From NCBI RefSeq assembly GCF_015265475.1, contig NZ_CP054493.1, positions 2,232,001 to 2,296,000 on the forward strand: a stretch of 64,000 bases of DNA. The letters are read 5' to 3'. Below, one piece after another: positions 1-13,886 of this stretch. Below the pieces are notes generated by a model. That model was not told where the DNA came from. It worked only from the letters and a program-made list of their open reading frames with translations, and did not search any database. The number at the start of each line of letters is the position of its first letter. Position 1 is the first letter of the stretch. The DNA comes from Candidatus Sulfurimonas marisnigri. GTDB taxonomy: Bacteria > Campylobacterota > Campylobacteria > Campylobacterales > Sulfurimonadaceae. The translations under genes were made by a program, and so were the position numbers.

Positions 1-346
1 AATCACCGGAGAGCATAATATTTCTACTCATACCTTTTGTAACATACAGGTCTGCTTTATAGCCGTAGTTTTTAGATAAAAAAGAACCGACTAAAATAAT
101 CAAAAAAGAGATGTGAAATAAAAACAGACCAAGCTTTTTTAACTTGTACATCTTTGCTCTAAAGATAGCTACTATTAAAAACAGAGCTAAAACACCTTGC
201 AAAGACCAGAACCATAAAGCATCATAGATATACTCTCTTGCCATACTATGTGAAGAGCTGTTTTCTATAAACGTTCCAGTAGCAATAGACAAAGCATAAA
301 TTGCCACAAAAACAAGTGCCACTTTCATAGAAAAGAGCTTATACAT
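1..346 (-). CDS. ResB-like cytochrome c biogenesis protein, 5' part
   Basis: Reading from an ATG at 346 gives 115 codons that run off the window edge without a stop. The peptide begins MYKLFSMKVALVFVAIYALS, then has TGTFIENS, a second hydrophobic segment and a third (FLFHISFLIILVGSFLSKNYG). That is the usual N-terminus of ResB/CcsB, with early transmembrane helices and the TFIE-type motif. ResB works with CcsA in system II to deliver and attach heme to apocytochromes outside the membrane. The start overlaps the last 8 bases of the upstream ccsA gene, so the two are translationally coupled. The gene is incomplete here, so fusion at its far end cannot be judged. Confidence 0.8.
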   Translation of the reverse strand, partial: MYKLFSMKVALVFVAIYALSIATGTFIENSSSHSMAREYIYDALWFWSLQGVLALFLIVAIFRAKMYKLKKLGLFLFHISFLIILVGSFLSKNYGYKADLYVTKGMSRNIMLSGD

Positions 347-1958
347 TTTTTCTATCCTTGTACGAAATAGCCACTAAACCAAAGAGGCTTAAAGCACCAA
401 TATAAGCATACCAAGGTACACGAGAACCACTGTCGCTTGCATATACATGTATAGCGTCAAAAAAGTAGTTTACACCAAAATATGTCATTAAAATAGTACT
501 AAATCCCAAAACCGACATTACAGAAAAGAGATAAACCCCGCTTCTCTTTGCAATAAATCTAAAATGGAGTATGAACATATAAACTAGTATAGAGATAAAT
601 GACCAAGCCTCTTTAGGGTCCCATGCCCAGACTCTTCCCCACGATTCATTTGCCCATACGCTTCCAAGCAGTGTACCGATTACCAAAAGAGAGAGACCAA
701 AAATCATAGATGCTTCATTTGTTTTATAAGACTCTTTGATTTGTTTAGCTACATGTAGAGAGTTTTTAGAAAATTTAAAAAGCACAAGAGTGATAATTCC
801 AAGCATAAAACTTAAGGCCAAAAATGCGTATGAGGCACTAATAATCGCTACATGTATAACAAGCCAGATAGATTGCAAACTTGAACTAAGTGTTGTTATT
901 CTAGGGTCAATCCAGCTTAGATGAGCCGCAAAAAGCATAACTCCAGCCATAAATGTAGTAACTCCAAGAGCAAAGTTTGATTTCTTAGAAAATATCAACC
1001 CAACAAGCAAGATTGCCCAAGCTATAAATATCATAGATTCATAAGCATTTGTCCATGGCGCGTGAGTGCTGATGTACCATCTTAGCCCAAGATTAAAACT
1101 ATACAGAGCAAAAAGTCCATATAAAATAAAATTAGCACTTTTTTCAATCAACATGTAGTTTTTTTCTCTAAGCACTTTTATAAAACTTAGAACTAATAAT
1201 AAGAGTCCAACTATTATATAAAATGGATAAATTTTCTCAAATATCAAAATCTTGTTATAAAAAAGTTCAGCGTCCACTTTTTCTTTAGTTAGTAAAACCT
1301 TAGAACCATAAAGCTTTTGAAACTCAGCAATCTTTTTAACCATCTCTTTGGCTAAATCAACATCGCCACTGATTAAAGCTTTTTTATTTAAAACCAAGAT
1401 TTTTTGAACGTCAAACTTTTGTGAACCACTAAATTTTTCTTCATATGTTTTTGGAGACAACCAACTGTTTTTTTCATCATTAGCCAATGGGAAGATTTTT
1501 AAATAGCCTTGAGTGTAAACATACTTAGCAACTTGAAGTTTTTCATCTATTTTTAACAGCTCTTTATCATAAGCTGTTCTTTGGCTTGCCTCTTTTTTGT
1601 TTGCCTCAGCAACTTCAAGCATCAAAGTATAAATACCATCTTTGTAAAAATCATTATAACTTTGCACTTTTGAATTGTATTCAAGCATAGGAACTTTTTT
1701 CCAAAACTCTGGAGCAAAAGTCATCCCTAAAACAACTTGATTATGATTAAGCCCAAACAACTCTTTTTTTCTTGTAAGTTTATTTAAAACATCCATATTT
1801 AGAGTGTCAAGCGGTTTCATACGGCCATCGCCGCTTTGAACACTCAAGCGGGAAAAAACCTCAGCATAACCTTTATCTAACTGGTATTTTAAAACATCAT
1901 CTTTTACGAAAGAAAAAAGCATGGTTGTAAAAAATAATAAAATTAAAAAAAATCGCAT
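339..1958 (-). CDS. ccsA: CcsA-type cytochrome c synthetase subunit
   Basis: Membrane heme-handling subunit of the system II cytochrome c synthetase. The 539 residues start with a hydrophobic leader, followed by a periplasmic region of about 220 residues (SGDGRMKPLDTLNMDVLNK) like the linker in fused CcsBA proteins. A bundle of transmembrane helices follows, holding the tryptophan-rich heme motif WGRVWAWDPKEAWS near residues 439-452. Campylobacterota normally make one fused CcsBA of about 900-1,100 residues; here the CcsA half is its own gene and ResB follows, overlapping by 8 bases. It starts directly after the stop of the preceding gene. Its place at the end of a cytochrome operon suggests a dedicated heme lyase. 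Confidence 0.9.
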   Translation of the reverse strand: MRFFLILLFFTTMLFSFVKDDVLKYQLDKGYAEVFSRLSVQSGDGRMKPLDTLNMDVLNKLTRKKELFGLNHNQVVLGMTFAPEFWKKVPMLEYNSKVQSYNDFYKDGIYTLMLEVAEANKKEASQRTAYDKELLKIDEKLQVAKYVYTQGYLKIFPLANDEKNSWLSPKTYEEKFSGSQKFDVQKILVLNKKALISGDVDLAKEMVKKIAEFQKLYGSKVLLTKEKVDAELFYNKILIFEKIYPFYIIVGLLLLVLSFIKVLREKNYMLIEKSANFILYGLFALYSFNLGLRWYISTHAPWTNAYESMIFIAWAILLVGLIFSKKSNFALGVTTFMAGVMLFAAHLSWIDPRITTLSSSLQSIWLVIHVAIISASYAFLALSFMLGIITLVLFKFSKNSLHVAKQIKESYKTNEASMIFGLSLLVIGTLLGSVWANESWGRVWAWDPKEAWSFISILVYMFILHFRFIAKRSGVYLFSVMSVLGFSTILMTYFGVNYFFDAIHVYASDSGSRVPWYAYIGALSLFGLVAISYKDRKNV

Positions 1959-2423
1959 CTATTTATCCTCTATAGGAGTATTAACCTCTTTTATTATCTT
2001 AATATGATTTATCTTCCAAGTGCCATCTTCCAATTGAATAAAGAAGTACCTCATATCATAGTCAGTTTTTACAGGTTCTGAGGAAACTTTTTTTCTAAAT
2101 ATATCTATATATCTGTATTTCCACTTCTCATGCGTGTCGAGTGTAGCAGTAATGCCATCTTGATTAAACTCACCAAACTTTATACCTAGAAGAAGGGCAT
2201 CCATAAATAGATAGTTGTCCTGATAAGACTCTAGCCAAATCCAAGTCTTAAAATATATCTCTTGCGTTAGATACTCTTGTAGATGGTCAAACTTCTTTTT
2301 TTTCGCTGCTAAAAGGACTCCGTGATTATACGAAACAACAAGCTCTCTAAAAGGCTTGTTATCTACTTCACTAGCAAATATAGTGAGTGAAAAAAAAATA
2401 TAAAATATAAAATATTTAGTCAT
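1959..2423 (-). CDS. small secreted protein, possible IMS/NTF2-like domain
   Basis: A 154-residue protein with a short N-terminal signal peptide (MTKYFIFYIFFSLTIFAS). The remainder is soluble, with a helical first half and a beta-rich second half (ATLDTHEKWKYRYIDI, then DYDMRYFFIQLEDGTWKINH). That pattern of paired strands ending in a 'dGtWKI' strand resembles ARC6-like IMS or NTF2-like folds, but this is a weak resemblance and no function can be assigned. It contains no heme motif. It sits between the large cytochrome (12-base gap) and ccsA (no gap), so it is probably a periplasmic accessory of the electron-transfer system or of heme attachment. Confidence 0.6.
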   Translation of the reverse strand: MTKYFIFYIFFSLTIFASEVDNKPFRELVVSYNHGVLLAAKKKKFDHLQEYLTQEIYFKTWIWLESYQDNYLFMDALLLGIKFGEFNQDGITATLDTHEKWKYRYIDIFRKKVSSEPVKTDYDMRYFFIQLEDGTWKINHIKIIKEVNTPIEDK

Positions 2424-2435
2424 GTCTCTTAAATC

Positions 2436-4580
2436 TTACCAACCGGTTGGCTTAGTCTCTGCTGTACCAGTTTGGTCACCAGACCTATGCTTATCACTAC
2501 AGCTAGGTCCATTTGCTAATATTTGATTTGCATTCCAAGTTGCACTACCTTTTGCTATTCTAGTAAAATAAATCTTATTTCCATTGTAATTATATGGTGC
2601 TGGAAAAGTAGTCATGCCCAACAATCTTGACATAGGAGAACCATGAGGAATTGCGATATGACATCTTACACATTCCAAATTCATCTCATTTCTTTCAGTG
2701 TGATTAGGTCCACCTTGTTCTATAAAGTGACAATTTCGACAAAAGACACCTGGGTTGTTTCCACTATTATTACTACTACCAGATTTAAATAGGGTTCCTC
2801 CTGAATCAGCTGGCCAATAATTATCAGTATTTTTACCTTTTAGCATAAACTTATAACTAGAACCATGAGGACCTTTTGGGTCAGTCCCTGTCTCATCAGC
2901 TGCTCCATGACAATCACTACAGTACATAGTCTGAGTACCTTCACTTTTCCATGGATCTCTCATCTCACTATCTTGTAAAGCTTTTGGAGAATTACTTCCA
3001 GTTCTACTACCGAGTGCAACATTTACAGGGTGACCTGAGCGGTTATTGACATTAAACTCCCACGCAACATCTGTAAAATTTACATTTGCATCACTAAATG
3101 TCACATATGCTGAGTGTGCAGGACTATTTGTCATCGTATCTCCATTCGCTCCATCAGCACCTATCCCCCAATATGAGTGACACTTAAAACACACCTCATA
3201 CTCATAAGTAGCAGTTTCGAGTGTTGTAAATGTTGTTGGCTGCTCCCATCTAGCTGTTGATGTAAAGGATGTTGGTCTAACTCCGCTAGCACCTTTTAAC
3301 GGACCTTCATTTGCTCCATTTACTATAAGGTTTGTGCCAGCACCGTTAGTTGGGTACAAAGAACCTGGTAGTGTACGGCTAATCTCTTTTACCTGATGCT
3401 GATTATGACAGTCCATGCACTCTACATGTTGAGAACTAGTCCAATCTATACCACTTGTTGGACCTTGATCATTTGTTACACCCGCACCATAAATATAATC
3501 TAGATTTGTGTGCTTTATATTTCCATTGCTATTTCTCAATGTGAATCCATGACCGTATTGCTCACTCATAGCAGTCTCTATGTCTTTTCCACCTGATGCA
3601 CCACCTGAACCGTGACATGGAGCTGTGCTTACTGTATCAGATGCTCCTTGGTAACATGTTTGCTCCTGCACTCGTCTTGTTAAATACTGGTCGTCACCTG
3701 CATTATGAGGAGTATGACAATTTACACATTTCATGTCAGATACCTTTGTACTAGCTCCATTTGAAAATTTAGTATTCACAGTTGAGTTAGTATAGGTAGC
3801 AGTTTTAACATCATGCGTGCTTCCTACAAAATTATCTTTTACATGACATGACATACATGTAGTTGCTATATTTTGTCCATGTGTCGCACCTGTATCTACT
3901 CGTAAAAACTTTCCATTCTCTTTGTGTGGGTCATGACATGAGATACACTCTACAAACTTTTGACCAGGATATCCTAGATATTCACGAAGCACTATTGGTG
4001 AATCTGGGGTAGCCTTTAGTTCATTGCCTCTAGATGCAGATTGTGAATGTGGAGCACCAGCTGACGGCATTGTCATAGTTTCCCCATATGATACTGCTAC
4101 TGGATGATGCTTACCTAAATCAGTACCTATAAAAGCACTACTACCACTCAACATTGTCCCATCACCAGCAACACCACCCATAGCAATATCACTACCATTA
4201 CCACTACCTGGAGCATTTGTAATAGCGCCAATAGCTACAGTTCCATCATGACAACTAAGGCATTGTCTAGATATTGTTCCTGGTTCTCCATTTGCACTTC
4301 CTAATACTGATGGCATTGGATACCCTGTTCTTCTCAAATAATCACTATCATACATAGTATAAGCACTAGCAGGCATACTTCTGTTCCATAGTGGGGCTCC
4401 AACAGGTTCTGCTCCATGTGGGGTATGACAAAAAACACAAATTTCCGTTTCTGACGTAGCTTTTACTGTTCCTCCAGTGTTACTAACGGAAAGATTATGT
4501 TTTGTGTTTACAATTCCAGCAAAAAGAGAGACTGATGCAAAAAATGATATTCCTATAACAAATAATTTAATAAACCTCAT
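2436..4580 (-). CDS. large multiheme cytochrome c with two abnormal heme motifs
   Basis: A 714-residue exported cytochrome (signal peptide about 1-21) with ten CXXCH motifs at residues 48, 107, 212, 242, 285, 388, 464, 554, 614 and 637. Two further sites are abnormal: C309-X12-C322-H323, and CSDKH at 694-698, where lysine replaces the second cysteine. Residues 27-246 (KHN, CHTPH, CLSCHDG, HHPVAVSY, CHDPH, CMSCH) match the spacing of the neighbouring 270-residue tetraheme protein, so the N-terminus is a paralogous four-heme module followed by a longer heme-bearing extension. The gene ends a tight operon with two NHL propellers, a PPIase and an outer-membrane barrel, and is followed by ccsA/resB. 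A role as periplasmic or surface electron-conduit cytochrome is inferred. Confidence 0.9.
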   Translation of the reverse strand: MRFIKLFVIGISFFASVSLFAGIVNTKHNLSVSNTGGTVKATSETEICVFCHTPHGAEPVGAPLWNRSMPASAYTMYDSDYLRRTGYPMPSVLGSANGEPGTISRQCLSCHDGTVAIGAITNAPGSGNGSDIAMGGVAGDGTMLSGSSAFIGTDLGKHHPVAVSYGETMTMPSAGAPHSQSASRGNELKATPDSPIVLREYLGYPGQKFVECISCHDPHKENGKFLRVDTGATHGQNIATTCMSCHVKDNFVGSTHDVKTATYTNSTVNTKFSNGASTKVSDMKCVNCHTPHNAGDDQYLTRRVQEQTCYQGASDTVSTAPCHGSGGASGGKDIETAMSEQYGHGFTLRNSNGNIKHTNLDYIYGAGVTNDQGPTSGIDWTSSQHVECMDCHNQHQVKEISRTLPGSLYPTNGAGTNLIVNGANEGPLKGASGVRPTSFTSTARWEQPTTFTTLETATYEYEVCFKCHSYWGIGADGANGDTMTNSPAHSAYVTFSDANVNFTDVAWEFNVNNRSGHPVNVALGSRTGSNSPKALQDSEMRDPWKSEGTQTMYCSDCHGAADETGTDPKGPHGSSYKFMLKGKNTDNYWPADSGGTLFKSGSSNNSGNNPGVFCRNCHFIEQGGPNHTERNEMNLECVRCHIAIPHGSPMSRLLGMTTFPAPYNYNGNKIYFTRIAKGSATWNANQILANGPSCSDKHRSGDQTGTAETKPTGW

Positions 4581-4592
4581 TTCAACCCCTCT

Positions 4593-5591
4593 CTATTTAG
4601 ATATATTCAGGCGTTTAAACATCTGAACTCTTTTATTATTTGTATCGCTAATGTATATTTTATCATTTTCTGATATAGATATATTAACAGGCAAAGAAAA
4701 CTCACCAGCTCTATTGCCATATCTACCTAAAACAAGCAGTAATTCACCTTTTTGATTAAAAATCTGTATAGCATTAAAGAGTGTATCACTCACATAAATA
4801 TTTTCATCACTATCAACTGCTATACCTCTTGGATTTACAAAACTACCTATCTTTTCCCCTACATTACCAAATGAACTTATGTAGTTTCCATCTTTATCAA
4901 GTATTTGCACACGATGATTTAAAGAATCTGTAACATATAGTTTGCCATTTTTACCAATTGCAATATATGTTGGTCTATTAAATTCTCCAGCCTTTTTTCC
5001 AAAATTACCTATAGAAAAAAGGAACTTGCCGTTAGTATTCATTACATGTATTTGGCTAGATACTGCGTCTACAATATATAAGTTTTTATTCTCTGGGTTT
5101 ATGGCAACACCTACTGGTCTCTTAATCCTAACATTTTGTATAATATGCTTAAAATCTCCATCTTCTTTAAAAACAAATATTTGTGCACGAACAGAATCAG
5201 AAACATAAATATTTCCTTCATCATCAACACAAACACCAATAGGGTATAAAAATGGCTGTTTACTTGATCCCTTTATATCTATGATTTCATCATTCTCTGT
5301 GTCAAATACATAAACAGACTTTAACGAAATATCTGTTACATAGATTTTATTTTTTACAATTTTTAAACCAAAAGGTGCTAAGAGTTTAAAATTATCTTCT
5401 CCAAAAACAAAATCACTAAGCTTAGAAAAAAAACCTTTTTTTACACCTGCTTGAGCTGCTGTAGAAAATGAATCTATGTACTCTATACGAGCAGGGTCAG
5501 GCTCTTGAGGCCAATATAATCTCTCTTGTGTCCCTGCATATAAACTCATACCAATAAAAAAAACAAACATTAACTTTATAAAATTCCTCAC
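4593..5591 (-). CDS. periplasmic NHL-repeat beta-propeller protein
   Basis: A 332-residue protein with signal peptide MRNFIKLMFVFFIGMSLYAG and six repeats of the type 'P.GIAVD..GNIYVSDT.N.RIQVF...G'. Examples are GVCVDDEGNIYVSDS near 120 and GIAVDSDENIYVSDT near 255. This gives a six-bladed NHL propeller, a scaffold for protein contacts rather than a known enzyme. It is closely similar in layout to the lipoprotein encoded at 8336-9475, so the two are probably duplicates within the operon. The gene lies 12 bases from both the barrel gene before it and the large cytochrome gene after it. I infer a scaffold or assembly role around the cytochrome. Confidence 0.85.
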   Translation of the reverse strand: MRNFIKLMFVFFIGMSLYAGTQERLYWPQEPDPARIEYIDSFSTAAQAGVKKGFFSKLSDFVFGEDNFKLLAPFGLKIVKNKIYVTDISLKSVYVFDTENDEIIDIKGSSKQPFLYPIGVCVDDEGNIYVSDSVRAQIFVFKEDGDFKHIIQNVRIKRPVGVAINPENKNLYIVDAVSSQIHVMNTNGKFLFSIGNFGKKAGEFNRPTYIAIGKNGKLYVTDSLNHRVQILDKDGNYISSFGNVGEKIGSFVNPRGIAVDSDENIYVSDTLFNAIQIFNQKGELLLVLGRYGNRAGEFSLPVNISISENDKIYISDTNNKRVQMFKRLNISK

Positions 5592-5603: not shown

Positions 5604-7397
5604 TTAAAAATTTCTTACCAATTTTGCTCGCATAATTCCTCTAGATGTATATGTATCCTTAATAGAGCCGACTGTCATTGAATACATATAATCATAAGAT
5701 AATGTAAAAATTGTTTTACCAGCTACATACTTCATAGATGCACCACCTCCATAGGACACTTGCTTAGCAGTAAAATTATTAAGAGCTCTAGCATTTGATT
5801 GAATAGACAACTTCCTTCCTACGTATTGAAAGTTCAGAGATGAATTCGCACTAGAAATATCACTTGACACATCTTCAGTAATCAAACTATCATATGTATA
5901 ACCTGCCGATGCTGATATGGTGCTTCTTAAACCTATCCTTCTATTATACGACAAATTTGAATTATTACCATAAGATACAACAGTAGTGCCTTGCTTTAGT
6001 TGATAAGATGCAACAAATTTATTTGTAAGATATCCCAAGTAAGTTTCTAAATTTACGCTTGTGCGCCATGTATCACTGCTATCTTCTTGTGATTGCATAA
6101 CACGATTATATGAAGTAACAATTGTACCATTAGACCTTAGTCTTGGCAGGTTTTCTCTTAATGAAGCTCTAAGACTAAGAGTTAGTGTTTTATCTAAGCT
6201 ATCTTCTTCGGCACTAGTTTGATTTTCATCAAAACGTTCTGTTGTGTTACTCACTACATTCCCAACAAGTGAACTAGTGGTAATAATATTTCTTTGGTTA
6301 AATAAATTTATAGTTTTGCTGTATGTAGTTATTAGATTGAACATTGCTCTTTTATTCATATAAATGTCGTCTTGTGTAGTAAAATAACTTGCATTTTGAC
6401 CAACTAAAAGCCCTGGCAATATATTATAGCTAAACATCTGATTTAAATTTATCGTGCTAATTGAATTAGACCCTTCTGTAGGATTAGAAATATTATTATA
6501 ATCATATGGGGAATAATCTGTATTAACGATATCAAGGCCAATGGAGCCTAGTATATCTTTATTTGGTTTCCAGTTTAATACAATATTTCCATAGGCCACT
6601 TTAGTTTCAAGATTGCTCACATTATTGTCAATAGTAGTACTTTGATACAATAAAGAAGTATCCAGCTTAAAACTTTGACTTGGATAATAACTATAACTAA
6701 AATCAACAACATTATCTTCGCTATCTATTGCATTAGAATTTACATTATTTGTATCTACTTTTCGAATGTTATTTAGAAATCCTAATTTAAAACTTTGTCC
6801 AGTGCCTTTATAGTTTAAATTTACGCCATATTTAGCATCAGTTTCTTTTTCAGAAGTATTGCTTGAGTTTTTCTTGTTTTTACTTTCATTAAGATAATAG
6901 TTTAATCCAAATTTACCCAGGTCTACAGAACCACCAAAATTATAATTTTCTATAGTTCTTAAATAGTATATAGAAGTACTATTAGCATCTACTCCTATTT
7001 CTATTGAAGGTTCAGTAAACTTACTGTAGCCTATACTAAATGGGACTTTCGTACTTTTTAAAAATGAAAAATCACCACCATAATTATTACTTTGTGAGCT
7101 ATTATCATTTTTAATATTTGACATTGAATCATTTTGCTTTAAGTCTGAATAGTCTAAAGATCCATATACCTTATATTGTAAAATTTTTGGATGATAAACA
7201 TTTCCATCGTACAATAACTTATACTTTTGTGTAAATGTTTCTTCACTGTTCTTATAGTCTTGGGTTTCACTTTGATCATCTTCATAGTTAAACTCAATAT
7301 TACCACTTAAACCCTTGTCTGGATGATTTTTTGCCAGAACAACAGGTGAGCAAATTAACACAAGGCAAACAAAGGTTAAACAAAAATTCTTCATCAC
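5604..7397 (-). CDS. outer-membrane beta-barrel, candidate electron-conduit porin
   Basis: A 597-residue protein with a signal peptide ending near VVLA (residue 22). It is rich in Ser, Asn, Tyr and Thr, with alternating hydrophobic strands throughout, and ends in phenylalanine (AKLVRNF), the usual C-terminal signal for insertion by the BAM machinery. No plug or TonB box is visible. It also lacks the N-terminal CXXC of MtrB, so it is not a plain MtrB homologue. It lies inside an operon with a multiheme cytochrome, a PPIase and two NHL propellers. By analogy with porin-cytochrome complexes I infer that it encloses a cytochrome across the outer membrane. Ordinary outer-membrane roles remain possible. 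Confidence 0.75.
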   Translation of the reverse strand: MMKNFCLTFVCLVLICSPVVLAKNHPDKGLSGNIEFNYEDDQSETQDYKNSEETFTQKYKLLYDGNVYHPKILQYKVYGSLDYSDLKQNDSMSNIKNDNSSQSNNYGGDFSFLKSTKVPFSIGYSKFTEPSIEIGVDANSTSIYYLRTIENYNFGGSVDLGKFGLNYYLNESKNKKNSSNTSEKETDAKYGVNLNYKGTGQSFKLGFLNNIRKVDTNNVNSNAIDSEDNVVDFSYSYYPSQSFKLDTSLLYQSTTIDNNVSNLETKVAYGNIVLNWKPNKDILGSIGLDIVNTDYSPYDYNNISNPTEGSNSISTINLNQMFSYNILPGLLVGQNASYFTTQDDIYMNKRAMFNLITTYSKTINLFNQRNIITTSSLVGNVVSNTTERFDENQTSAEEDSLDKTLTLSLRASLRENLPRLRSNGTIVTSYNRVMQSQEDSSDTWRTSVNLETYLGYLTNKFVASYQLKQGTTVVSYGNNSNLSYNRRIGLRSTISASAGYTYDSLITEDVSSDISSANSSLNFQYVGRKLSIQSNARALNNFTAKQVSYGGGASMKYVAGKTIFTLSYDYMYSMTVGSIKDTYTSRGIMRAKLVRNF

Positions 7398-7406
7398 TTC
7401 TTGAAT

Positions 7407-8339
7407 TTACTTTATTATCTTTGCTTTTTTCTTTAACTTCTCAAGAAGCTCGTCTCGTTTAATTTTCTCTTCTTTAGTTTGTAAGTCTTTTTTTAAATTA
7501 TCTTTTATCTTGCTGAATGGAAGCTGCTTCGCTTCACCTTTTTCAATGACTTCTACTATATAACAACCCAGACCTCGTTCCATAACCTCACTAAGTTCCC
7601 CAGGCTTCATTTTAAACACTTCTTCTTCTATACTAGCAGTTATCTGTCCCTTATGCATAAAGCCCAAGTTACCACCCTTAACACGACTCCTGTCACTAGA
7701 GTATTTTTCTGCCACTTCCTCAAATGATGTGCCACTTTTGATTTTTGCTAATGCTTCATCTGCTTTTTTCTTTGCCTTTTTATTCCCTATAGGGTCCATT
7801 GGATTGTTTTTTATATATATCATTTTGATATTTATTCTCTCTGGCATTTTAAACTTGTGCTTGTTGTTTTTATAATATTCTTTAAGCTCTTTTTCTGTTG
7901 GTACGCTTTTTATGTTTTTTTCATAAACTTGAGCTAAAACTAACTCTTTTTTAAATGCATGCATATATAAATCGAAGCTAGTACGTTTCTTCTGAAAATA
8001 AATATCTAGTTGAGCTCTTGAATTATTTGCAGCCTTAAGAAGTTCCTTTTTTCTAGTATCTAAATCCTCTTGCTTTGGTTTAAAACCTTGTGAAAGTCCA
8101 TAAGTATAAAAAATATTTATATTTATAAGTTCATCTAAGGCTTTTTTTATCAACTCATCTGTTTTTGCTTTTTTTAAATTTGTATGAAAAGAAATTCTAG
8201 GCAATAGTTTTTCAACAGTATAATTAAGTTCTTCTTGAATTATTGCTGTTCCGTTTACTACTGCAACTGTATTTTCTGGAAGTACTGTCGCATGAGAAAA
8301 AGACAAAACAATAAAAAGTGAAACTAATATCTTTTTCAT
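7407..8339 (-). CDS. periplasmic parvulin-type peptidyl-prolyl isomerase
   Basis: A 310-residue SurA/PpiC-like chaperone-isomerase. A signal peptide (about 1-18) is followed by a helical N-terminal chaperone region (30-150). One parvulin domain lies at about 160-265, with EEVAEKYSSDRSRVKGGNLG and PGELSEVMERGLGCYIVEVI. A basic tail follows. The start overlaps the stop of the upstream lipoprotein gene by 4 bases and the barrel gene follows after 9 bases. In this setting it probably folds the beta-barrel or the proline-containing multiheme cytochromes. From memory, PPIase genes recur next to extracellular cytochrome genes in Geobacter; I could not check that here. Confidence 0.9.
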   Translation of the reverse strand: MKKILVSLFIVLSFSHATVLPENTVAVVNGTAIIQEELNYTVEKLLPRISFHTNLKKAKTDELIKKALDELININIFYTYGLSQGFKPKQEDLDTRKKELLKAANNSRAQLDIYFQKKRTSFDLYMHAFKKELVLAQVYEKNIKSVPTEKELKEYYKNNKHKFKMPERINIKMIYIKNNPMDPIGNKKAKKKADEALAKIKSGTSFEEVAEKYSSDRSRVKGGNLGFMHKGQITASIEEEVFKMKPGELSEVMERGLGCYIVEVIEKGEAKQLPFSKIKDNLKKDLQTKEEKIKRDELLEKLKKKAKIIK

Positions 8340-9475
8340 TTGTCACCATCCTTTTTTGTCTGTTTTTCTTTTTCTTTTCTTTCTCTTTCTAAAACAGCTT
8401 TAGGTGTATAATCTACATACTCTTTGTACTTTAATGGATTGTTTTTTTGCCATTTTTCACTTAAGTATTGAAACGACTGTACTCTTCCTGAAAAGCCATC
8501 AGCTATAATTAGTTTATCATTTTCATCAATATACATCCCCGAAATAAGTCTAAATGTTGCTGGTTCTACGAATCCTGCATGACCAAAATAAGTCATTATC
8601 TCACCTTCTTGATTAAAAACTTGAACATTATTAAATGCACTATCAGCTACATAAATATGCCCTTCACTATCAATACCTACCCCTTTTGGTCTTGCGAAGT
8701 CACCAGGTCTATCACCAACCTTACCAATACTTTTTATAAACTTTCCATCTTTATCAAAAATCTGTACTCTAAAATTTTGTGTGTCTGTTACTACAAAATT
8801 ATTGTTTCTTCTATCTATGGCAATATTTGTAGGGAAGTTAAATTCTCCATGAGCATTACCTCTTTTACCAACTTTATACAAAAGCTTTTTAGTAGCCAAA
8901 TCATAAGCTTTTACATCATGTGCTTTTGTATCTACAACATATAATCTATGAAGCTCCTTATCAATAGCTATCCCTGTTGGTGCTGTAAAGTCTAAGCGAC
9001 TTCCAAGAGTAAAAACTAAAGTTCCTTCTTGATATCCTGTAATTTTTTTTGCTAATATATCACTTATATACATTATGCCATCTTTATCAAAAGCTATAGA
9101 AACAGGACTAACAAAACTAGCTCCCTGGCCAGCGCCCAAGTATGCTACTTTTTTTGTTTTTTCATCAATTATAAAAACAACTCTCGTTCCTGTGTCTACT
9201 ACATATATTTTTCCATTTTTAAAAGCTACACCATAAGGTTTTACTATAAGAGGGTTTTGGACTTTTTTACTAGTATCACCAGTTATACTGTCTAATAAGT
9301 TAGTTTCTTCCTCTTCAACATTTTCACCTCTATATGTGTCTAGGTAAACAATACGTGGCTTATCAGGATATGGAGGAAACGCTAGCATTTCTTGTTTTAT
9401 CTCTTTTACTTTTGTTGAGCATCCTATAAACATAAGTTGCATAAAAATAAAAAGCACAGCCAATATCAGTTTCAT
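8336..9475 (-). CDS. NHL-repeat beta-propeller lipoprotein
   Basis: A 379-residue lipoprotein whose signal ends in the lipobox FIGC (cysteine at residue 19). Six NHL-type repeats span about 75-345, for example GVAFKNGKIYVVDTGTR, NIAIDRRNNNFVVTDTQNFR and GVGIDSEGHIYVADSAFN. A charged tail rich in Lys and Glu closes the protein. It heads the long operon: 72 bases separate it from the YceI-like gene upstream, while the PPIase gene overlaps it by 4 bases. It is a paralogue of the soluble NHL protein at 4593-5591. Anchored to a membrane, it probably scaffolds the cytochrome-barrel assembly; no enzymatic residues are evident. Confidence 0.85.
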   Translation of the reverse strand: MKLILAVLFIFMQLMFIGCSTKVKEIKQEMLAFPPYPDKPRIVYLDTYRGENVEEEETNLLDSITGDTSKKVQNPLIVKPYGVAFKNGKIYVVDTGTRVVFIIDEKTKKVAYLGAGQGASFVSPVSIAFDKDGIMYISDILAKKITGYQEGTLVFTLGSRLDFTAPTGIAIDKELHRLYVVDTKAHDVKAYDLATKKLLYKVGKRGNAHGEFNFPTNIAIDRRNNNFVVTDTQNFRVQIFDKDGKFIKSIGKVGDRPGDFARPKGVGIDSEGHIYVADSAFNNVQVFNQEGEIMTYFGHAGFVEPATFRLISGMYIDENDKLIIADGFSGRVQSFQYLSEKWQKNNPLKYKEYVDYTPKAVLERERKEKEKQTKKDGDK

Positions 9476-9547: not shown

Positions 9548-10135
9548 TTAGTAGCAAATTTCATCTATTTTTATTATTAAACTAGCATGAACATCATCCC
9601 ATGTTACTCCTAAATGTTCACCACTACATGCATTGTCTAGTGAGTTCAATGCATCACTTGCATTAAAATCTCTCATATAGATATGCCACCTTGCATGAAA
9701 TTCTCCTTTTTTTATAAAGTAAGATGTTTTAAGCTCTTTTTTAACGCCATTAAAGTCTAACTCAATAGTAATATAACCACTTTTTTTATAAATTTCCTTA
9801 TCTGCTTCAACGGCTATAATTTTAGCTCTAATATCTTTTTTTATTATCTTTTTAAAAAAATATTCCTTCAGATTAGGTATTATCAGATCTTCTTTTGAAC
9901 CAATGTCTACTATATTTATAATTACAGATGAGCCAACAAGTAGTTGCTTCAAAGTTGGTGCTTCATTTTTGGCAGGAGAGTACTTGATATCGTTAAAGTG
10001 GCTACCCATAGCAACTTTAAATTCTGTCTTATATCCTCTAAAGAGAACTTCTATATTGTTTTTTTGTGTAAACTTACAGCTATATGCCTGAGCTAAAACA
10101 CTAAAAAAAACAAGTGCTACAATACTTTTTTTCAT
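9548..10135 (-). CDS. YceI-like periplasmic protein
   Basis: A 195-residue protein with signal peptide MKKSIVALVFFSVLAQAYS. The rest alternates beta strands in YceI fashion (EVLFRGYKTEFKVAMGSHFN; SGYITIELDFNGVKKELK), with three cysteines (20, 170 and 194 approximately). YceI-family proteins fold as lipocalin-like barrels, often binding isoprenoid lipids. It has gaps on both sides and a TATAAT-like box upstream, and the upstream tetraheme gene ends in a strong terminator, so it is probably transcribed separately. Its role next to the cytochromes is unknown; a quinone- or lipid-binding function is only a guess. Confidence 0.6.
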   Translation of the reverse strand: MKKSIVALVFFSVLAQAYSCKFTQKNNIEVLFRGYKTEFKVAMGSHFNDIKYSPAKNEAPTLKQLLVGSSVIINIVDIGSKEDLIIPNLKEYFFKKIIKKDIRAKIIAVEADKEIYKKSGYITIELDFNGVKKELKTSYFIKKGEFHARWHIYMRDFNASDALNSLDNACSGEHLGVTWDDVHASLIIKIDEICY

Positions 10136-10207: not shown

Positions 10208-10242
10208 AAAAAAAAAGGCAGATGCTAAAAGCACCTGCCTTT
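10208..10242 (-). terminator. rho-independent terminator of the tetraheme cytochrome gene
   Basis: On the minus strand a 9-bp GC-rich stem (GGCAGGTGC paired with GCATCTGCC, one G-U pair) with a 5-base loop is followed directly by nine U residues. It lies 20 bases beyond the tetraheme stop codon. It is the clearest terminator in the window and separates that gene from the YceI-like gene. Confidence 0.9.
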
Positions 10243-10262
10243 GCGAACAAACAAGAGTATAC

Positions 10263-11075
10263 TTATTTGTCGTGACAACCAATACAAAGCTGAGAACCTT
10301 TGTTAGTATGACGAAGATAACTAACTTCACCTGTACCTTGTGCTGAACCTGTTGCATTATGTGGATCATGACATGAAACACACTCAACTTGATCATTAGA
10401 AGAACCTCTTAGTAGATCCGACACTTTAGGAGTTGCAGGAGCACCTGGTACTAGCCATGCTTGATCTCCTGCTGGTAAAGTAGTTGCAGTTGTTCTTAAA
10501 GAAGCTCTTCCTGGAACATATGTAATAGAAATTGGATGATCATTTGATAAGTCAGCTACACCATCAGCACCACCAGCACCTGCATCATATGAACCACCAG
10601 CACCAATATTACCGCCATTCAATGAGCCAATACCAGTCATACTCATATTACCATCTTTTAGACCGCCCATACCAGAACCTGGAGCATTTAATATAGAGTT
10701 AACAGCAGAAATACCATCATGACATGATAAACATACTAAAGATGGATTCGCTGGTACAGTACCATTATTATCACTTCCACCAATCGTTTTACCATACATC
10801 TTGTAACCAGACACACCAGCCGTAGGCTTGTTTAGTGAATCTTTATTCCAAAGTGGCGCACCTGAAAAAGCTGTGTTAGCCGCGTGAGGCGTGTGACAAT
10901 ATACACAAATTTCACCATTATCACCAGTAGTTGCACCACCAGTTCTTACGCTAATGTTGTGTGGACTACCAGTAGCAGTAATCGATTCACCACCATAAGT
11001 AGCACCTGAAGTACCCGCGAAAGCCATTGTTGTTGTTAACAGTGAAGCTAATAACAATTTTAATTTAGTATTCAT
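10263..11075 (-). CDS. exported tetraheme cytochrome c, candidate filament subunit
   Basis: A 270-residue protein with a signal peptide ending AFA (residue 20) and four CXXCH motifs at 57, 115, 232 and 264. Candidate distal histidines are H39 (SPHN), H64 (CHTPH), H180 (NDHP), H239 (CHDPH) and H256. Long Gly/Ala/Ser stretches separate the motifs, especially residues 130-175. The same module is repeated at the N-terminus of the 714-residue cytochrome. The gene has its own consensus sigma-70 promoter, a GGGAGAG ribosome site and a strong terminator, which suggests high monocistronic expression. Size and heme number are like the tetraheme cytochromes that polymerise into extracellular nanowires (OmcE type), but homology to those is not proven. 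A periplasmic shuttle is the alternative. Confidence 0.9.
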   Translation of the reverse strand: MNTKLKLLLASLLTTTMAFAGTSGATYGGESITATGSPHNISVRTGGATTGDNGEICVYCHTPHAANTAFSGAPLWNKDSLNKPTAGVSGYKMYGKTIGGSDNNGTVPANPSLVCLSCHDGISAVNSILNAPGSGMGGLKDGNMSMTGIGSLNGGNIGAGGSYDAGAGGADGVADLSNDHPISITYVPGRASLRTTATTLPAGDQAWLVPGAPATPKVSDLLRGSSNDQVECVSCHDPHNATGSAQGTGEVSYLRHTNKGSQLCIGCHDK

Positions 11076-11130
11076 AATATCTCTCCCTTTGCATATAGTA
11101 AATTACTTATATGTTTTGTTGATATACAAT

Positions 11131-11159
11131 ATTATATCTATTAATCTTAATAATTGCAA
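11131..11159 (-). promoter_or_regulatory. sigma-70 promoter of the tetraheme cytochrome gene
   Basis: On the minus strand TTGCAA (11159-11154) and TATAAT (11136-11131) are separated by exactly 17 bases. They lie about 55-84 bases before the start codon. A good ribosome site (AAAGGGAGAG) precedes the ATG. The near-consensus -35 is notable because Campylobacterota promoters usually lack one. Confidence 0.75.
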
Positions 11160-11227: not shown

Positions 11228-12253
11228 TTACTTTTTATGGCATCTTTGACATACGTTAAAAGGATGGGAACCTTCCATTCTAAGTAAATATATCCCTGTG
11301 GATCCATGAGGGTTATGACAGCTTGTACAAACGAATTCCCTTCCTGGCCGTGCTGGGTCTGCTCTATCTTTTGTTGGGTGAGCTCCTGCATTTCTTGAAA
11401 AAACAAATCCTGAAACTATATGGTTGCCCGGAATCGCTTTTTCCGTATGACAAGTTGTGCACAAGTCCCAAATATGCTTACGAAGAAAAAACTCATTGTC
11501 AGAGCCGTGTGGATTATGACATCTTTTACATCTTCCATCATTAACTGGGCCATGTCCATATCTGCTTGCTTGCCACCCCTCTACAGTATCATGACAATAT
11601 GCACAAGTTTTTGCGATTGGATCAGGTGCTAAATATTTCGTAAGTCCTTCATCGTCTATGTTGTATTCAGCACCTTTTCCATTATGACAAATCGTACACA
11701 ACCAGTTAGCAGCAGGAGCATGCGTACTTTTGGTATTTAACTTACCGCTGTGACACTTATAACATGTAGTTTCTGAGACATCATCAAATGGTTCATCTTC
11801 AGGAGGTATATTATTTGTCATATCATGACAAGATTTACACTTCTCTTCCTCTTCTTCTGAATGAAAATAATTTTTATCATACTGTTCAGCATCATATACA
11901 TCTACACCAGGGAGTACATCATTGTAAAAGTAAGACTCCCTTTTATCACTACTAAGAAGTTTACCATCTTTATATGCTTCAATAAAAATTGTATTTACTG
12001 CTGGATGAAGCTCAACGGTTTTACAATACGTATCTTTTTCTGATGTTACATCTATTGTTGTATTTATATCGCCTTGTCTAATAACTATCTTATCTACACT
12101 TTTATGATTTGCTTCAATTACAAACGTGCTGTCTTTTCCTTCGTATCTTGTATAATCAAAAGGTTTCATGATTTCAATAAAAGATGAAGCTTCTTCAGCT
12201 TTGCCGCTTAAAGCGACAAGAAGAAGAATAAAGAAAAGATATATTGTTTTCAA
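11228..12253 (-). CDS. octaheme cytochrome c with N-terminal beta domain
   Basis: A 341-residue exported protein (signal about 1-19). Residues 20-120 are heme-free and strand-rich (SFIEIMKPFDYTRYEGKDST, VNTIFIEAYKDGKLLSSDKR), like an immunoglobulin-type carbohydrate- or protein-binding domain. Eight CXXCH motifs follow at 139, 164, 186, 217, 242, 265, 309 and 335; several are of the doubled 'CHNPHGS' class. It follows the 12-site cytochrome by 8 bases and is followed by a hairpin, so it ends that operon. A periplasmic or surface electron carrier whose N-terminal domain binds a partner is a reasonable inference. It does not look like a known octaheme nitrite, hydroxylamine or tetrathionate reductase. 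Confidence 0.85.
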   Translation of the reverse strand: MKTIYLFFILLLVALSGKAEEASSFIEIMKPFDYTRYEGKDSTFVIEANHKSVDKIVIRQGDINTTIDVTSEKDTYCKTVELHPAVNTIFIEAYKDGKLLSSDKRESYFYNDVLPGVDVYDAEQYDKNYFHSEEEEEKCKSCHDMTNNIPPEDEPFDDVSETTCYKCHSGKLNTKSTHAPAANWLCTICHNGKGAEYNIDDEGLTKYLAPDPIAKTCAYCHDTVEGWQASRYGHGPVNDGRCKRCHNPHGSDNEFFLRKHIWDLCTTCHTEKAIPGNHIVSGFVFSRNAGAHPTKDRADPARPGREFVCTSCHNPHGSTGIYLLRMEGSHPFNVCQRCHKK

Positions 12254-12261
12254 GACCAGAT

Positions 12262-13503
12262 CTATTTCAGGTTGACTTTTGGAGTCTCTCTATCGTAGTG
12301 GCGACGAGCATGACAAGCTGGCGCACATGAACCGCCATTTTCAGTTTCAATATAACGAATTGGAAAATTTATTCTTCCAAACTGTGTTTTCTTTCTTAAG
12401 TGGTGTGGGTACTCTTTTGTTCCATGAAAATCATGACAAGCACGACAAGAACGACCTTTTATTTTGTTAACATGCACAAAGTGTATATTTTTATCACCAT
12501 TTCTAAAGTTAGTTGCTTCAATTGTAAACTCTGCTTTAATTTTATCTGGTTCATGACACTGAAAACAGATATAATTTTTTTCGTCAAAACTTTCATAAAA
12601 AGTTCTAGGAAATGGTTTTTTTAACATTCTTAAGTTGTTTGAGCCATGAGGATTGTGACATGCAGCACAATCACCCCAAAGTATTGGACCATGCCAATCT
12701 GGATTATCTTCAAGATGTTTTGCAATATTTTGAAGCTTGTACCCTGTCTCATCAGTTTTTAAAGACTCATTGTGACATGTTAGACATAACTCTTTTGCTG
12801 TATCTTTAATAATAAACTTTGGATGCTCAGAACCATGAGGGTCGTGGCACTCAAGACATTTTCTTGGTCTATCAATTGCTCCATGCTTATCTGTAACTTC
12901 TGCTATCCAAACTTTTTTATCTACATGACACATAAGACAGATATCTTTTTTACGGTCAGCTTTTAGTTGGTAAAGATTATCTTCAGTGTGAGGATCATGA
13001 CAGTTTGTACACTGATCTTTTACTGGTGGGTGAATATATGTAGTATTGTGTAAAAACTTATCTTTTGCCTCGTGACACGATGTACAAAGCTCATTGATAC
13101 TAGCTCTAACCAAAAGTTTTGCGTTTGGTGATTCATGTGGGTTATGACATGCTGTACAAGCACCTGCTCCTACTGGTCCATGAATAAAATTCTTAGTATC
13201 TTTTGGTTCATGGCACTGGTAGCACAATTCTGGAGTGTCAAGCTTTAAATCTTCTCCATCTTCAGGGTTAGCTCCCTCATGACAAACAGTACAGTCTCCC
13301 CACTCATATGGAGGGTGAACAACTTTTTCATCTGCTCTTAGTGCAGTTCCGTAAAACTTCTCTTTTTCAGTTAAAGCGAGAGTTTCAGTTTCAGCTTGAG
13401 CACCAGCCATATCTGCACCAAAATCTTCAGCTGCCATGATACTTGTACATGTTAGCAATAAAGAGATAATTATATTTGCTATGTAGAAACGATTATATTT
13501 CAT
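12262..13503 (-). CDS. dodecaheme-type cytochrome c
   Basis: A 413-residue exported cytochrome with a signal peptide of about 24 residues and an acidic linker. It has eleven CXXCH motifs (71, 94, 116, 140, 165, 189, 216, 240, 279, 313, 353) and a twelfth site with one extra residue, CAPACH at 393-398. Many sites are doubled CXXCH pairs with CHNPHES, CHDPHTE and CHDPHGS, typical of periplasmic electron-storage cytochromes. It is 8 bases before the octaheme gene and 17 bases after the monoheme gene, forming one operon. The family is used as wires rather than enzymes, so a periplasm-spanning carrier is inferred. Confidence 0.85.
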   Translation of the reverse strand: MKYNRFYIANIIISLLLTCTSIMAAEDFGADMAGAQAETETLALTEKEKFYGTALRADEKVVHPPYEWGDCTVCHEGANPEDGEDLKLDTPELCYQCHEPKDTKNFIHGPVGAGACTACHNPHESPNAKLLVRASINELCTSCHEAKDKFLHNTTYIHPPVKDQCTNCHDPHTEDNLYQLKADRKKDICLMCHVDKKVWIAEVTDKHGAIDRPRKCLECHDPHGSEHPKFIIKDTAKELCLTCHNESLKTDETGYKLQNIAKHLEDNPDWHGPILWGDCAACHNPHGSNNLRMLKKPFPRTFYESFDEKNYICFQCHEPDKIKAEFTIEATNFRNGDKNIHFVHVNKIKGRSCRACHDFHGTKEYPHHLRKKTQFGRINFPIRYIETENGGSCAPACHARRHYDRETPKVNLK

Positions 13504-13520: not shown

Positions 13521-13886
13521 TTATCTTTGTCTTGGTCTATCAGCAGCTGAAACCAGATATGTTGCGAGAGCCTTCATTTTGTCATTTGAAAGAGTCTTAA
13601 TTTTTGCCAATTGCGGGTTCATAACAGGTGCGCGGTCTGGATAAACTATAGGGGTTCCCAATGAACTAAGATAAGACACTAAAGAACTCTCTTTACCTGT
13701 ATATGCAGTCGCTATTGTCATTATTGATGGACCAATTAGCTCTTTGTCTAATTTATGGCAAAGGGTACAACCTTTTGATTCGAAGATTGCTTTACCCTTT
13801 GCTTTGATAACATCATCTGAATCTTCTGCTATAACATTAGAGAAAAACAATATGCTAAAAGATAAACCCAATATAAATTTTTTCAT
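13521..13886 (-). CDS. monoheme class I cytochrome c
   Basis: A 121-residue periplasmic c-type cytochrome. The signal peptide ends about residue 20; CTLCH at 40-44 binds the heme, and the methionine of PVMNPQL (about residue 90) is the likely sixth ligand. The C-terminal helix ALATYLVSAA is typical of small class I cytochromes. It is the first gene of the cytochrome operon that continues to the 12- and 8-heme genes. It is a good candidate to pass electrons between the bc1 complex and the multiheme proteins. Confidence 0.85.
   Translation of the reverse strand: MKKFILGLSFSILFFSNVIAEDSDDVIKAKGKAIFESKGCTLCHKLDKELIGPSIMTIATAYTGKESSLVSYLSSLGTPIVYPDRAPVMNPQLAKIKTLSNDKMKALATYLVSAADRPRQR

Follow-up and report, generated by a model that had tools for sequence, protein, structure and literature searches.

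A probable OmcE-family nanowire subunit with dedicated assembly genes, and a fused OmcE-domain partner that is possibly a filament cap or anchor, in Candidatus Sulfurimonas marisnigri

A tetraheme cytochrome gene of Candidatus Sulfurimonas marisnigri raises the question of whether some Campylobacterota build extracellular heme filaments of the OmcE type. Homology surveys have found OmcE relatives across bacteria and archaea, and our literature search, whose coverage of key papers was incomplete, found no paper on OmcE-type wires in Campylobacterota. Some Sulfurimonas, which belong to this phylum, respire solid Mn(IV) oxide, yet the authors of a study on a Sulfurimonas MAG, who could trace no complete electron conduit in it, invoked "an undetected porin" (PMC11748539). 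The gene lies in the window analysed here, a stretch of 64,000 nucleotides (NZ_CP054493.1, positions 2,232,001 to 2,296,000), and a first reading made from the letters alone (the sequence-only reading) had proposed that it encodes a strongly expressed filament subunit. Our best reading is that the surrounding cluster encodes an OmcE-family nanowire subunit with dedicated assembly genes. We give a probability of roughly 80% to the proposal that this cytochrome is exported, carries four bis-His hemes and forms, by head-to-tail polymerisation, a heme filament outside the cell that is served by the neighbouring genes. The features of the locus, all on the minus strand and numbered from the start of the window, are the following:

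13521..13886, minus strand: monoheme c-type cytochrome at the head of the cluster (Pfam Cytochrom_C; syntenic)
12262..13503, minus strand: mhc413, an 11-heme MtrA/DmsE-like cytochrome, proposed periplasmic electron donor or acceptor (6r2q_A match, co-occurrence)
11228..12253, minus strand: mhc341, an 8-heme cytochrome (upstream neighbour in the clusters of relatives)
11131..11159, minus strand: promoter-like site TTGCAA-17-TATAAT (10/12 consensus match, not above shuffles)
10263..11075, minus strand: OmcE-type tetraheme cytochrome of 270 aa, proposed filament subunit (phmmer against PDB, profile, eight conserved His)
10214..10242, minus strand: intrinsic terminator after the subunit gene (13-bp stem, then a T run; -18.9 kcal/mol)
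9548..10135, minus strand: secreted-like protein of 195 aa, no family (only in the cluster of this genome)
8336..9475, minus strand: NHL_A, an NHL beta-propeller with a lipoprotein-like N-terminus (Pfam NHL; co-occurrence)
7407..8339, minus strand: SurA/PrsA-like prolyl isomerase (PPIase), proposed folding chaperone (Pfam Rotamase_3, 7.1e-23; syntenic)
5604..7397, minus strand: 28-strand outer-membrane beta-barrel of 597 aa, proposed secretion or electron conduit pore (AlphaFold, Foldseek)
4593..5591, minus strand: NHL_B, a second NHL beta-propeller (Pfam NHL; syntenic)
2436..4580, minus strand: mhc714, a cytochrome with 10 CXXCH and an N-terminal OmcE unit, proposed filament cap, nucleator or anchor (7tfs match)
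1959..2423, minus strand: cluster protein of 154 aa (syntenic; one relative weakly matches an NTF2-like family)
339..1958, minus strand: CcsA-type part of a system II cytochrome c maturation gene (in relatives, one ResB-containing protein of ~1050 aa aligns with it)

The subunit gene starts at an ATG with a ribosome-binding-site-like GGGAGAG just 5' of it, and the product is as the sequence-only reading described it: 270 residues with four CXXCH sites (at residues 57, 115, 232 and 264) and long Gly/Ser/Ala-rich spacers, behind a Sec-type signal-like N-terminus. Pfam returned generic heme-motif families only, with Paired_CXXCH_1 as the best, and an AlphaFold model made with 23 homologues was discarded because its pLDDT of 42.9 was too poor for any use of fold or interface. 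The OmcE-type identity, at first a guess from heme number and motif order, is supported by the proposed comparison with OmcE, as full-length homology, eight conserved histidines, synteny and co-occurrence all agree with it. PDB 7TFS is the Geobacter OmcE filament (PMC12954529). A phmmer search of all PDB chains gave two real relatives, 7tfs_A (E 2.8e-16) and 9yuq_N (E 5.6e-16), both over the full length, and a profile of 23 homologues matched the same entries at 8.2e-39 and 2.6e-35. The identity to OmcE is 32% over 247 columns, low outside the heme sites, and the long Gly-rich insertions differ. The two other filament types do not fit: the subunit has four hemes where OmcS has six, and matched 6ef8 only at E 0.0066 over 15 residues in the profile search of the PDB; OmcZ is an octaheme protein whose heme-1 motif is expanded, but the four CXXCH sites here are all standard, and neither the phmmer nor the profile search of the PDB gave an OmcZ match.

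Four bis-His hemes require eight histidines. Exactly eight (39, 61, 64, 119, 180, 236, 239 and 268) are invariant in the first nine homologues; when 23 are considered, His39, 61, 119, 180, 236, 239 and 268 remain invariant and His64 is kept in 22, and the ninth histidine of the protein, His256, is not conserved. All four CXXCH sites align with those of OmcE, as do the four other conserved histidines, which fall on its motifs KHD, TPH, DHP and KVH. Furthermore, the chain ends two residues past the fourth CXXCH in all 15 homologues checked. In OmcE and OmcS the interfacial heme takes a histidine ligand from the adjacent subunit (PMC12954529, PMC9473688). A conserved N-terminal His39 and a chain that stops at heme 4 are consistent with a similar joint, at which the C-terminal heme (CXXCH 264-268) of each subunit would receive its remaining ligand from His39 of the next copy.

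The claims on expression fared less evenly. The near-consensus -35 and -10 boxes with 17-base spacing are present as described, but they are no better than chance: when this 152-nt region was shuffled 500 times with its dinucleotides preserved, 83 of the shuffles equalled the match, and we therefore rejected the promoter as evidence of expression. High expression is thus left with codon usage as its sole support; the CAI of 0.732 is at the level of the ribosomal region (mean 0.718), ranks 8 among the 63 ORFs of the window and is the highest in the cluster. The strong terminator holds up, with a 13-bp stem at 10242-10214, a T run and -18.9 kcal/mol. The phrase "apart from its operon" needs a qualification, since the gene stands inside a co-directional cytochrome cluster, at 152 nt from its upstream and 127 nt from its downstream neighbour; promoter and monocistronic layout are weak arguments for a filament subunit. 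Strong terminators also follow the last or sole OmcE copy in 7 of 10 loci with downstream sequence, and their sequences differ, so the separation of the subunit gene from the assembly genes looks selected. As a separate observation, a box TTTACA-17-TGTAAT (or TGTAAC, TGTCAT) is shared by the regions upstream of OmcE copies in five other loci (L086, L088, L089, L090 and L095), at ~30-36 nt from the OmcE start in most of them.

The cluster reads, in one direction, monoheme cytochrome, mhc413, mhc341, OmcE, the 195-aa orphan, NHL_A, PPIase, barrel, NHL_B, mhc714, the 154-aa protein and the ccsA-type gene. mhc413 matched chain A of the Mtr complex, 6r2q_A, at E 2.9e-16, and NCBIfam DmsE at 1.6e-35, yet below the cut-off of that family. 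The barrel was modelled by AlphaFold at a pLDDT of 86.8 with 28 strands, and its best Foldseek match was MtrB (6r2q_B, E 8.3e-10, TM 0.45), with other outer-membrane barrels scoring similarly; as their Z was similar too, we rejected it as a proven MtrB homologue. The 195-aa protein between OmcE and NHL_A matched no family and is absent from all the clusters of relatives examined. In two other families a further tetraheme protein, which forms its own clade in the tree, lies between NHL_A and the PPIase (L086 10180-10944, L088 13993-14682, L094 3770-4450, L087 1623-2288).

A cluster of this kind could also house a soluble, monomeric tetraheme carrier that shuttles electrons through the periplasm, linking the inner membrane to the barrel complex of the outer one. 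Its small size and Sec-type signal-like N-terminus would suit the subunit to that role, and the adjoining MtrA-like and 8-heme cytochromes and MtrB-like barrel fit a porin-cytochrome conduit. However, the protein is homologous over its full length to a filament protein and not to small tetraheme carriers, it retains the N-terminal histidine and the abrupt C-terminus past heme 4, and folding- and secretion-type genes stand in its neighbourhood, all of which makes the carrier an unlikely reading, even if it is the best placed of those we weighed against a filament.

For the OmcE-family filament we propose the following scheme. The PPIase would fold the subunit, the 28-strand barrel could pass either the subunit or electrons across the outer membrane, and the NHL propellers may support filament assembly. 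The 11- and 8-heme cytochromes would feed or drain electrons, and the 10-heme mhc714 may dock its own OmcE domain on one end of the filament, as a cap or anchor. Electrons would likely flow out to Mn(IV)/Fe(III) or to partner cells.

The distribution of these genes ties several of them together. OmcE-type genes occur in 12 of 397 Campylobacterota genomes, in 6 of 68 genera, and mhc413 has the identical distribution, present in those 12 and absent from the other 385; two sets of 12 would coincide completely by chance with a probability of ~4e-23 when shared ancestry is ignored. NHL_A is present in 11 of the 12 and in 0 of the other 385; the contig of the twelfth (G024) stops within OmcE. The same gene order appears in 13 further genomes of the phylum, four families in all, some of these loci being split by contig ends, and several of the genomes carry tandem OmcE copies (L086 4212-7926, also L088, L089 and L095). 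In L086 the first copy is directly preceded by genes for a histidine kinase and a sensor-type protein with dCache, and other genomes have ORFs of similar size at this place, which suggests regulated switching of subunits. The present genome has a second full OmcE-type gene, 43% identical to the first (G000:C1:2458093-2458800; L026 8097-8804), which stands outside any such cluster and has a low codon adaptation of 0.589. The genome contains the 16S target of probe EPSY914 as an exact match at four places, which assigns it to the Campylobacterota. A search of the plasmid collection gave no match.

The perfect co-occurrence with the 11-heme MtrA-like mhc413 argues that the filament is tied to electron transfer. 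It counts against a filament that is OmcE-like yet mainly adhesive or structural and not conductive, a reading that draws on the dispute, alive even for Geobacter, over whether cytochrome filaments are physiological conduits (PMC11077965, PMC13194489) and that we hold to be about one chance in ten, marginally below the carrier. Weakest, and very improbable, is a terminal reductase that, like MtrC or OmcA, belongs to the barrel complex, lies exposed at the cell surface and does not polymerise: Mtr-like components do occur within the cluster, but the protein has four hemes only, no MtrC/OmcA family match above cut-off, and OmcE and 9yuq as its best PDB relatives.

A module similar to this one also occurs in a second phylum. 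OmcE-type genes were found in one Magnetococcales MAG and one Phycisphaerae MAG, and 22 of 398 genomes in the phylum of the former carry one. Among eight further loci of this second phylum, seven share the order OmcE, PPIase, NHL_B and a long OmcE-domain cytochrome with 11 CXXCH, and in the eighth the stretch examined ends before NHL_B. A long OmcE-domain ORF lies within ~12 kb of a short one in 19 of the 22 genomes (counted by eye). A large heme-free ORF follows the PPIase in all six second-phylum loci where the gap was read. In the Phycisphaerae MAG (L018 10607-15310), a protein of 1568+ aa with an NHL-like part and 20 CXXCH adjoins the OmcE-type gene.

The long cytochromes are the most unusual part of the cluster architecture. 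mhc714 opens with an OmcE unit of ~250 residues; its residues 18-247 matched 7tfs at 4.2e-26, better than the subunit gene itself, and the unit retains all four OmcE-type distal histidines. Right after heme 4, where OmcE ends, mhc714 continues with His256, a residue that all ten full-length Campylobacterota proteins in the alignment share. We rejected the idea that this linker is a true second OmcE N-terminus, and kept only its invariant histidine, because the profile matches were weak and ambiguous. In the tree, the OmcE units of the long proteins from both phyla form one group (98/91), so the fusion looks old, unlike a recent duplication; the placement of Geobacter OmcE in the same tree was left unused because of long branches. 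The mhc714 family retains an expanded motif, CYQGASDTVSTAPCH, throughout. Most relatives end in a CX4CH heme motif (CDGATCH, CSGGMCH and others), and the C-terminus of mhc714 (window 2436-4580, minus strand) has CSDKH in its place, so this heme site looks lost.

A tentative proposal, to which we give somewhat less than even odds, is that the two phyla share a conserved module that builds OmcE-type nanowires and includes a dedicated filament-end protein, the long multiheme cytochrome that starts with its own OmcE unit. In Campylobacterota, the invariant histidine after heme 4 could supply in cis the ligand that the next subunit would otherwise give in trans, and the protein may serve as cap or nucleator of the wire or as its anchor on the outer-membrane barrel.

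These genes suggest that some Campylobacterota build protein wires toward extracellular electron acceptors. If relatives of this genome respire Mn(IV), the cluster offers concrete candidates for the route, namely an OmcE-type wire, a 28-strand barrel and an MtrA-like cytochrome. Additionally, the anchoring and secretion of wires are counted among the open questions (PMC12307469), and the fused OmcE-domain partner, which both phyla conserve, would help to explain how wires are attached or terminated.

Compared with known systems, the subunit is closest to Geobacter sulfurreducens OmcE (GSU0618, PDB 7TFS), with which it shares four CXXCH hemes, a CHxK C-terminus, full-length homology and the same four distal-histidine motifs (KHD/PHN, TPH, DHP, KVH/DPH). 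It differs in its ~32% identity, in longer Gly/Ser/Ala insertions from heme 2 to the DHP motif and in belonging to another phylum; OmcE is a known polymer, and for the present protein a polymer is proposed. Chain N of PDB 9yuq, a "putative multiheme cytochrome c" in an entry of 16 chains, is likewise homologous to the subunit over the full length. The MtrAB conduit (PDB 6R2Q) resembles the cluster through the matches of mhc413 to 6r2q_A and of the barrel to 6r2q_B, but the TM-score of the barrel is only 0.45, with similar values for other barrels, and the cluster is without MtrC. The osc genes of Geobacter for folding, secretion and morphology are reportedly a prolyl isomerase, channel-like proteins and a beta-propeller; a prolyl isomerase, beta-propellers and an outer-membrane channel all adjoin the filament gene here. 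The osc operon is described as serving OmcS nanowires through genes for their folding (OscH), their secretion (OscEFG) and their morphology (OscD) (PMC13194489), and a block of eight genes has been connected with the maturation and secretion of OmcS (PMC12977616). The likeness lies in gene content, the same kinds of genes standing beside a filament cytochrome; unlike the osc operon, the Sulfurimonas cluster has an OmcE-type and not an OmcS-type filament gene, and it adds MtrA-like cytochromes and the OmcE-domain fusion.
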